The notes below the pieces were generated by a model. The model was not told the DNA's origin, searched no databases, and saw only the letters and a list, made by a program, of their open reading frames with translations. This document shows positions 7,531 to 11,367 of a stretch of 11,367 nucleotides of DNA, one piece after another; position 1 is the first letter of the stretch, and every line of letters starts with the position of its first letter. The DNA is from Candidatus Symbiothrix sp. (GTDB lineage: Bacteria > Bacteroidota > Bacteroidia > Bacteroidales > Azobacteroidaceae), in NCBI GenBank assembly GCA_031270525.1, contig JAISXN010000118.1, positions 1 to 11,367 of the forward strand, given 5' to 3'. The position numbers were made by a program, and so were the translations under genes.

Positions 7531-9534
<2,004 letters not shown>

Positions 9535-9557
9535 GGCAGGGTGAATTCATCCGTGCC
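9535..9557 (+). terminator. possible terminator hairpin directly after uvrB
   Basis: GGCA plus GGGTG (9535-9543) pairs with CATCC and TGCC (9548-9552, 9554-9557) around an AATT loop, with one bulged G at 9553 and one G-T pair. It begins at the base after the uvrB stop codon. The T tract is poor (CCTTAAAAA), so termination strength is doubtful. The hairpin at 9590-9616 could serve as a backup. Confidence 0.4.
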
Positions 9558-9589
9558 CCTTAAAAACGTCTTAAAACATTTAACAAATC

Positions 9590-9618
9590 TGTCTGTCACT
9601 GTATAGGTGACAGACACT
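9590..9618 (+). repeat. left inverted repeat (29 bp), itself a hairpin
   Basis: TGTCTGTCAC (9590-9599), loop TGTATAG, GTGACAGACA (9607-9616) make a perfect 10-bp stem, followed by CT. The reverse complement of all 29 bases recurs at 9947-9975 with a single mismatch. The asymmetric loop shows that the two copies really point in opposite directions. Confidence 0.95.
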
Positions 9619-9643
9619 TTAAGTTTTCATTATCAATTCGCGA

Positions 9644-9651
9644 CAAAGGTA
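9644..9651 (-). promoter_or_regulatory. orphan leftward -7 promoter element inside the inverted-repeat segment
   Basis: On the - strand this reads TACCTTTG, an exact TAnnTTTG match, identical to the element before the oxidoreductase gene. A matching -33 element is not evident. Transcription would run left through the left repeat and antisense to uvrB, with no - strand gene to receive it. Confidence 0.45.
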
Positions 9652-9946
9652 TAAATATTTAACCGATTGATTACTATCCTATTGAATGAATTTTTACCTG
9701 TCCGGTGAGCTTTTCGAACCGTCAATTTGCAAGGGCAAATTTCCATTAAAATCGCACCTAACTGATTGATTATAAACGTATCTCATCAATGTTTAGCTAA
9801 TAGTTATCTTTTTAATGCCAGTAATAAACTTACATTCAATATTTTAAAGATGTTTTTTAAAGTGACGTTAACCAATATTAACAATTTGCTTAACAATTTT
9901 GTAAACATTTTCTTTGTAATTAATTGTATTACAGTGCAATACAATT

Positions 9947-9975
9947 AGTGTCCGTCACCTATACAGTGACAGACA
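9947..9975 (-). repeat. right inverted repeat (29 bp), itself a hairpin
   Basis: TGTCCGTCAC (9949-9958), loop CTATACA, GTGACAGACA (9966-9975). This is the reverse complement of the left repeat except for C at 9953, which also places one mismatch in this copy's own stem. It lies 110 bp upstream of the ATG at 10086. Confidence 0.95.
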
Positions 9976-10085
9976 TTTAAAACACAAAAATTGATTGATT
10001 ATGTACTTGTGATTGAGATAATTACAAGGACTTTGGTTGAATGTAAACAAATGTTAAAGAAAAAATTGAAAAATTTGGAAAAAAG

Positions 10086-11150
10086 ATGAAAAAAGAACTT
10101 TTTTTGATGTTTACGCTGTTCCTGCTTGTATCGGGAACAGCCAATCTGAGCGCGCAAGTAAGGATTGGAGGGAGTAGTGAACCGCATACTGCCGCCGTAC
10201 TTGACTTGAATGTGACCGATGATGCAACCCCTTCCTCAAACAAGGGAGGTTTGGCTTTACCCCGGGTGGATTTGACTTCCGAAACACAGGAACTGAACGG
10301 CAAACCTCCTATAAATGGTATGCTGGTATATAATACCGGTACCGGTGTAGCTGGTGCCGGCGTATATGTCTGGATTACCGATAAATGGTGTAAGGCATCG
10401 ACTGTCGATTATACCGGTTCGGCTTCTATTCAACTTGACAACGGTAGTTTTCAGCGTGCAAAACTAGAGGGAGATGTAATAGCCGACGCCAACAGCAATA
10501 CTACGACCATTGCAACAGATGCGGTTACTTCTGCAAAGATAAAGGACGGTGAAGTTAAAGAAGATGATTTGGCTACCGGCGCTGTGACAGCCGCAAAACT
10601 GGCTCAAATGAATGCTAGGGAGGGTCAAGTATTAAGTTATAACGGAACGGCTTGGGCAGCGCGCAGCTTATTACCTGATGCCTGGCTGTACTTTGGGCTA
10701 AACGCTGAGTTTACTGTTGTGCTGAAAGGTTACTTTTCTGGTCCTCCGACGTCATCTTATGTCAGCGGTCTTTCCGGCGCGTTTAGTAGTACGTGGACCC
10801 CTAATGGCTTCGCTCAGAAGGACTCGTCTCTGCTTTGGGCTCCTGTTCAAGTGGGCACATATGCCAGGGCTCTACAGACGTGCTCTGGCACTTGGCGATT
10901 ACCTAACCTGCGAGAGCTTCATGAGTTCTACATGAAGACCGTTCGTCCCAATTACGCGACAAATGGATATTATTCCTATTATGACTACCGGGGAGTTATG
11001 CCTGGACTTGACGCCACCTTAGATATCTACTGGTCTAGTACACTATATAGCGGCAGCCGTGCATATTATTTGCGGATGACTGACGGGGCACGGGAAACTG
11101 TTCAATTGGAACAGTCACACGCTTACCGCTGCGTCAGAACTCGGCCGTAG
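10086..11150 (+). CDS. secreted modular protein with C-terminal Lcl/DUF1566-like (FISUMP-type) domain
   Basis: A 354-residue exported protein, probably at the cell surface. Residues 1-23 are a signal peptide with likely cleavage at LSA-Q. Residues about 24-104 form a module common in secreted Bacteroidota proteins: VRIGGSSEPHTAAVLDLN, GLALPRVDL, NGMLVYNTGTG and YVWITDKWCK. Residues about 112-190 are a spacer with short repeats resembling tail-fibre or stalk sequence, such as DAVTSAKIKDGE and TGAVTAAKLA. Residues about 198-354 form an Lcl/DUF1566-like domain with TWRLPNLRELHEFY (269-282), IYWSST (314-319), AYYLRMTDG (326-334) and YRCVR (347-351). This domain type has a C-type-lectin-like flavour and is often a binding tip. 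From about codon 195 the codon use shifts, with more CTG, CTA, GAG, AAG, CAG and AGG than elsewhere in the window, suggesting a separately acquired C-terminus. The ligand is unknown. A promoter is not evident in the present orientation of the upstream inverted-repeat segment. Confidence 0.82.
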   Translation: MKKELFLMFTLFLLVSGTANLSAQVRIGGSSEPHTAAVLDLNVTDDATPSSNKGGLALPRVDLTSETQELNGKPPINGMLVYNTGTGVAGAGVYVWITDKWCKASTVDYTGSASIQLDNGSFQRAKLEGDVIADANSNTTTIATDAVTSAKIKDGEVKEDDLATGAVTAAKLAQMNAREGQVLSYNGTAWAARSLLPDAWLYFGLNAEFTVVLKGYFSGPPTSSYVSGLSGAFSSTWTPNGFAQKDSSLLWAPVQVGTYARALQTCSGTWRLPNLRELHEFYMKTVRPNYATNGYYSYYDYRGVMPGLDATLDIYWSSTLYSGSRAYYLRMTDGARETVQLEQSHAYRCVRTRP

Positions 11151-11225
11151 ACTATTCGACTCTTTGACAATTAAATCGTCACCCCTCTCACGCTGAGCAG
11201 GTATTAACCGTTTATGTGCACAAAC

Positions 11226-11254
11226 GACGAGGGTTGAGAATCTCGACCCTTGTC
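11226..11254 (+). terminator. intrinsic terminator after the secreted protein gene
   Basis: GACGAGGGTTGAG (11226-11238) pairs with CTCGACCCTTGTC (11242-11254) over 13 bp with two G-T pairs and a 3-base loop, followed by ATTTTAAT. It lies 75 bases after the stop codon. Confidence 0.7.
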
Positions 11255-11262
11255 ATTTTAAT

Positions 11263-11287
11263 AAAGGTCGCAGGATTGCGAGTCTTT
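11263..11287 (+). other. second hairpin downstream of the terminator
   Basis: AAAGGTCGCA (11263-11272) pairs with TGCGA and TCTTT (11277-11281, 11283-11287) around a GGAT loop with a single bulged G. There is no T tract after it, so it is unlikely to be a simple terminator, and its role is unknown. Confidence 0.45.
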
Positions 11288-11367
11288 GTAGAAGCTACTT
11301 ATCAAAAATATTTCGACCTAACCGTTGATTTGGATTTCTCTGCAGATAAAACAGTTAAACAGACTTT

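Follow-up and report, generated by a model that had tools for sequence, protein, structure and literature searches.

The window analysed here is a stretch of 11,367 nt from a 1.49-Mb MAG assembly (genome G000), which is 53% complete. On the plus strand uvrB ends at position 9534, and further to the right lies the gene of a secreted-type protein. Between the two genes is a segment enclosed by inverted repeats, referred to as arms, with an outer flank (LF) on its left and the leader of the gene (RF) on its right (Table 1).

Table 1. Features of the locus, given by position in the window
Feature	Position	Strand	Remarks
Left outer flank (LF)	9561-9589		ends TTTAACAAATC; adjoins the promoter end in 39 LF/RF elements; conserved between copies
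Left inverted-repeat arm	9590-9618	+	core 9591-9615: half-site 9591-9599, 7-bp spacer 9600-9606, half-site 9607-9615
Bacteroidota-type -7 element TACCTTTG	9644-9651	-	faces left; plus-strand letters CAAAGGTA
Conserved box GATAGTAATCAATC	9665-9678	-	14 nt, 13 nt before the -7 element, at the place expected for a -33 element (by eye)
ATTTTGTAAACATT near the right end	9896-9909	+	conserved in own-genome copies
Right inverted-repeat arm	9947-9975	-	core 9950-9974; left-arm spacer in inverted orientation
Gene leader, right flank (RF)	9976-10085	+	conserved between paralogous genes; no TAnnTTTG
Secreted-type protein, 354 aa	10086-11150	+	family-specific N-terminus (PF26696, precomputed), Lcl_C domain
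Conserved 3' region	11148-11305	+	13-pair terminator-like hairpin at 11226-11254

A preliminary description of the locus had reported 29-bp inverted repeats with one mismatch around 328 gene-free bp. The arms were indeed found to be 29 nt long, 97% complementary and 328 nt apart, and the 27-nt arm matched twice in the window at up to 3 mismatches versus not at all in 200 dinucleotide shuffles. The sole open reading frame of at least 60 aa listed wholly inside the segment is a 60-aa frame starting from TTG, and no credible gene is present there. Among the features that had escaped the preliminary description, each arm is itself palindromic (9 + 7 + 9), and both the outer flank and the leader are conserved among copies of the element. 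The 25-bp arm core reads GTCTGTCAC-TGTATAG-GTGACRGAC, with two 9-nt half-sites in dyad symmetry and an asymmetric 7-bp spacer between them, and the second arm is the site of the first arm turned round. Symmetric half-sites with an odd number of base pairs between them, here 7, are suggestive of a tyrosine-type recombinase acting alone. An Rfam search of positions 9400-11367 gave no match.

The exact -7 element that had been placed near the left end, pointing left, is the one in Table 1. To the left of it no convincing gene was present on the minus strand, as had been stated, and the claim that no exact -7 element precedes the gene at 10086 also held, neither the element nor the 140-bp leader containing a rightward TAnnTTTG. 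After inversion the -7 element would occupy 9914-9921, with 165 bp between it and the ATG, in agreement with the earlier calculation. A clear -33 element had been declared absent; the TTTG-type Bacteroidota -33 was not found, and a different conserved box, overlooked at that time, occupies its place (by eye) and is kept with small changes across the copies. The sequence ATTTTGTAAACATT near the right end is possibly the -33 element of a second outward promoter; no -7 element was seen after it in the elements inspected.

Copies of the element and the genes behind it

The arm pattern occurred at 23 sites in G000, at 75 sites in the congener G018 and at none in 36 other congeners, and the reversed pattern, used as a control, was absent from all 38 genomes. 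A search for other loci with the same repeats had been proposed in the preliminary description, and the 23 arm sites in its own genome show that the module belongs to a family spread over the genome and is not a single locus. Single elements were also present in 'Prevotellaceae bacterium Pc512_bin92' (L185) and 'Tannerella sp. Pmx449_bin3' (L187), which, like G018, are presumably termite-gut bins. The viral contigs searched contained no paired element.

Tabulation of the arms with up to 5 substitutions and no indels gave 101 arms, with 23 from G000 and 78 from G018. The G018 rows include 66 of the 75 exact-pattern arms and leave out 9, and the table also omits contig C190, where the spacer is 2 nt longer, and contig C92, which has half an arm. 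Full paired elements numbered 42, of which 9 were in G000 and 33 in G018, and one further element was present in G018 (L173). Unpaired arms made up 17 of the 101, 9 of these being cut by contig ends. A flank of the TTAACAA type was found on 59 of the 101 tabulated arms. Pieces of element and leader of the own-genome type were seen in G018 at C164:3244-3302, at C92:11315-11460 and on C170 near 23384, and one 59-nt stretch of such pieces in the G018 bin was 100% identical. They may stem from recent transfer or from mixed bins. The gene-facing C92 copy described below belongs to the own-genome type.

The leftward promoter motif is conserved throughout the family. In 33 of the 42 paired elements an exact leftward TAnnTTTG stood at one spot, and the other 9 had TAnnTTTA there (by eye); the exact form was present in 32 of the 39 elements with LF on one side and RF on the other and in 1 of the 3 with LF on both sides. 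The middle bases were CC, AT, TA, TC, AC or GT and varied between own-genome, congener and L185 copies. A rightward TAnnTTTG was found inside only 1 of the 42 elements and in none of 39 leaders (140 bp each, 3 of them shortened by contig ends). Mononucleotide shuffles gave 0.57 TAnnTTTG motifs per element, both strands taken together.

The Lcl_C match of the window protein scored 31.7 bits, below the curated Pfam threshold of 34.9. Among the 120 relatives listed of 189, for which 8000 candidates had been scored, most were unnamed or 'hypothetical' and most had PF26696. The distance between the 25-bp arm core and the start of the gene is 111 bp in the window, and its median for the family genes was 108 bp. 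Enough downstream contig was available for 36 of the 39 LF/RF elements, and 35 of these 36 opened onto a signal-peptide start of the family (by eye), the exception being C15. Conversely, the N-terminus of the window protein had 50 matching places, of which G000 contained 8 and G018 contained 42. A tabulated arm lay at most 300 bp upstream of 33 of them, 7 had less than 150 bp of contig upstream, and 10 had room on the contig and no tabulated arm, C190 and C92 being among the ten. With 33 of 50 armed and 10 of 50 arm-less in spite of sufficient room, most members of the family carry the switch, though not all.

The dispersal of the copies could also be read as that of a mobile element of the MITE or cassette type, whose arms would be recombination or transposition ends that spread promoter and gene cassette without any switching. 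The copies are dispersed and have terminal inverted repeats, and the neighbouring genes vary from copy to copy (translations, by eye). Four copies, C145, C217, C170:26366 and L173, have LF on both sides; the flanks of C145 align over 52 bp and those of L173 are alike (by eye). The stretches inspected around C145, C217 and L173 showed no family gene next to these copies. Behind C170:26366, however, a family gene follows, its leader being separated from the arm by 15 nt of LF. The preliminary description had named the same unit scattered over unrelated loci with target duplications as the mark of a MITE. The unit is indeed dispersed, but mostly within one gene cassette, and a target duplication was not seen, C145, C217 and L173 having been inspected for it by eye. 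As the conserved outward promoter is also left unaccounted for, and likewise the near-constant distance to a single gene family (35 of the 36 copies that had room), a purely mobile element is improbable.

Other observations were made on the genes of this family and around them. From the stop codon onward, the conserved 3' region of the window matched the region after the paralogous gene on contig C29 (L031:5265-5421) at 87% over 159 nt, while the coding ends of the two genes gave no match. One relative, P0064, is filed under Candidatus Termititenax aidoneus, which belongs to another phylum; this filing reflects either sharing between gut symbionts or misassignment. The Lcl_C domain hinted at a diversity-generating retroelement. 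An ungapped scan of three own-genome loci, including the one with the sole RVT_1 match, revealed no adenine-biased template of the window gene, and the RVT_1 enzyme matches RT_UG38 best, which counts against such a retroelement; it was rejected for now. This enzyme, encoded on contig C144 of G000 (L056:982-2193, minus strand), is a 403-aa reverse transcriptase of an unknown-group or defence type, with 184.7 bits for RT_UG38 as the best PADLOC match.

Orientation of the copies and possible traces of recombination

In all 39 paired elements that have LF on one side and RF on the other, the promoter end (A) lies beside LF, which is the OFF orientation. The element of L185 was likewise OFF, giving 40 of 40 intact LF/RF loci; L187 was excluded from this count, as its right flank comprises just 7 nt. 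No intact inverted copy occurred among the 40 loci, and no locus was seen in both states. As assemblies show the majority state, this result leaves room for rare ON cells, but not for an even switch.

In two truncated copies of G018 the promoter end is the one next to the gene. The C190 copy has its box, then a degenerate -7 element (TAATTTCA) and an arm with the longer spacer, beyond which come the leader and the family gene. In the C92 copy the box is followed by TACCTTTG 105 bp before the ATG and by the half arm, which a short leader separates from its family gene. Both copies lack the inner end B and the second arm. The order A-arm-RF is the product expected from inverting LF-arm-A-B-arm-RF, and the two copies were therefore read as fossils of inversion; to judge from this order of parts, they are apparently remnants locked ON through loss of the second arm. 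A further family gene, C120:1144, is preceded by a segment that has no arm and is identical to the promoter end at 43 of 59 positions; it contains TATCTTTG, in sense direction toward this gene. Seven of the ten arm-less family genes were inspected (C70, C81 and C80 were left out), and 4 of the 7 had a sense TAnnTTTG within 300 bp, compared with 0 of 39 leaders of 140 bp, which is a weak sign, since the lengths searched were unequal and the motif is not rare by chance.

The spacer analysis covered 30 main-type elements of G018. Two spacer alleles occurred, TGTATTG and TATATTG, and the two arms of an element agreed in 28 of 30 cases; none of 20000 permutations was as good. Elements paired for the rarer allele, TATATTG, fell into at least two clades on the tree of the inner segments, one starred and one with support of 81/85, the bootstrap not being settled. 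Of the 30 elements, 9 had the half-site variant GTCTGTCTC on the gene side and none had it on the LF side. Strand exchange within the spacer would mix the spacers and keep the outer half-sites with their flanks, so the pattern of spacers and half-sites fits recombination. Part of the agreement between spacers could be inheritance with copying of whole elements.

These data also bear on the possibility that the element is a fixed regulatory module, which does not invert now, and did so only in ancient times if at all, and which was spread by cassette duplication. Its arms would be protein-binding or RNA hairpin sites and its leftward promoter would yield a short RNA. The single orientation of all 40 intact LF/RF loci fits this explanation, as does the failure to find a cognate recombinase in the element-bearing genomes searched. 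The left arm also forms a strong hairpin as RNA (-14.3 kcal/mol, z -4.7) with a terminator-like score on both strands. The predicted 93-nt leftward RNA, however, folds no better than chance (z -1.4; 17 of 200 shuffles did as well), and a fixed module leaves unexplained why 39 of the 42 elements have an inverted second arm with the same asymmetric spacer, why the spacers co-vary and why two copies face the gene. It is accordingly considered unlikely, if less so than the mobile element.

Several odd copies break at the edges of arms and were counted in favour of inversion. These are C145, C217 and L173 with their two LF, C26, which has the order LF-arm-RF without an inner part, and C170:23384, where foreign sequence is followed by an arm and RF. 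Two other breaks were counted against inversion: that of the truncated copy C23:3563 is located 10 nt inside an arm, and that of C170:26366 is 15 nt outside.

Search for a recombinase

The preliminary description had recommended a genome-wide search for a tyrosine or serine invertase. No cognate enzyme was found in G000 (53% complete), no serine recombinase was detected in this genome at the same completeness, and no recombinase gene was found beside the elements. G000 encodes, on contig C77, a 420-aa Arm-DNA-bind/Phage_integrase protein, as well as an XerD-like protein whose score fell slightly short of the cut-off. The XerD-like protein was the sole one seen in all four element-bearing genomes, at 55-94% identity to that of G000, and a second Xer-like pair was present in G018 and the L185 genome. 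The Xer enzymes are possible candidates for the invertase.

Two other enzymes were considered. The C77 integrase was rejected, since its presence does not follow that of the arms: a relative with 84% identity occurs in an arm-less congener, G018 has only a broken one with 36-43%, and relatives with 42-43% are present in the Tannerella bin. A Mpi-like serine invertase of 196-197 aa, the G018 and Tannerella-bin copies of which are 84% identical, is not supported as the switch enzyme; it had matches in 14 of 38 congeners, G018 included, of which 13 have no arms, and none in G000. G002, a small congener of 1.2 Mb in 5 contigs, gave five near-equal serine-invertase matches of 42% identity on C1, C2, C4 and C5. 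On C77 of G000, a gene for a 144-aa RhuM-like protein of PADLOC family PDC-S05 (L055:902-1336, minus strand) overlaps the end of the integrase gene.

Inversion model and relation to known switches

The preliminary description had interpreted the locus as an invertible promoter seen in its OFF orientation. This interpretation is partly supported, by the anatomy, the conserved -7 element, the co-varying spacers and the two gene-facing copies; an intact inverted copy was not found among the 40 loci. Because a family of arms with constant anatomy, the conserved -7 element, the co-varying spacers and the truncated gene-facing copies all agree with it, the invertible-promoter reading is favoured, and the elements are probably a multi-locus family of OFF-biased invertible promoters. 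Counted against it were the OFF state of all intact loci, the failure of the genome searches to find a cognate recombinase, the lack of a canonical -33 element, the broken condition of both gene-facing copies, one of them with a degenerate -7 element, and the 10 of 50 family genes that are arm-less.

According to this model, a putative site-specific recombinase would exchange strands in the 7-bp spacers of both arms and invert about 385 bp. The promoter in this segment, composed of the box and TAnnTTTG, would then point at the outer flank in the OFF state and, in the ON state, at the leader of a gene for a secreted lectin-like protein; the window would represent the OFF state. Intact copies would invert today and thereby turn the gene on, and OFF would be favoured so that a cell shows few of its dozens of paralogs. 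A more detailed version is tentative and, as a whole, rather doubtful. It assumes that alike invertible promoters before most members of one lectin-like surface family use a common site and a common enzyme, and that their asymmetric outer flanks keep them OFF. Each cell would turn on a few of them at random, loss of the second arm would lock a promoter ON, and exchange of arms between loci would reshuffle promoters and gene cassettes.

Weinacht is said to have described in 2004 that outer surface proteins of Bacteroides fragilis are switched by tyrosine recombinases. The present system resembles those switches in concerning surface proteins and in the tyrosine type suggested for its enzyme, but differs in that no recombinase gene was found beside the elements.

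In the excerpts available of two reports, promoters at capsule and surface loci of Bacteroidales are inverted by serine and tyrosine recombinases, and several scattered capsule promoters of B. fragilis are inverted by one global invertase, Mpi (PMC8375218, PMC12632263). The present family shares with the Mpi system described there the distribution of several promoters over surface loci of one Bacteroidales chromosome. The repeat quoted in these excerpts for the Mpi system is ARACGTTCGTN, and for B. intestinalis a 10-bp GTTCGTTTAA around 183-186 bp (PMC8375218/PMC12632263); a repeat of the ARACGTTCGTN type was absent from the arms when these were compared by eye with the quoted motif. Unlike the Mpi system, the elements described here have 25-bp palindromes with a 7-bp spacer, span about 385 bp and occur at tens of loci of one protein family. 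For a defined gut community, the parts available of PMC11892184 give a median of 8.5 invertons per genome in Bacteroidota, called from reads. Groups of invertons sharing a repeat had 2 to 72 members over all strains, some with the Bacteroidota promoter motif, and some invertons had a near-universal preference for one orientation (PMC11892184, same parts). The present family is like these groups in its shared inverted repeat, promoter motif and bias toward one orientation. It differs from the read-based invertons of those parts in that at least 34 paired elements with one arm type were found in one genome, G018, from assemblies.

No report of such switches in termite Bacteroidales was found in a limited literature search. 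The class of invertible promoters is known in Bacteroidales, and the present elements agree with it in having a promoter with the Bacteroidota -7 element, enclosed by inverted repeats, at intergenic surface loci; what is new is the repeat family, its scale and dedication to one protein family, and the OFF state of all intact copies. One repeat family is apparently dedicated to one expanded surface-protein family, and every intact assembled LF/RF copy is silent. If the model is true, this would be a bacterial counterpart of mostly silent antigen repertoires. The approximately 40 copies also provide natural replicates in which the determinants of the bias of a DNA switch could be measured.
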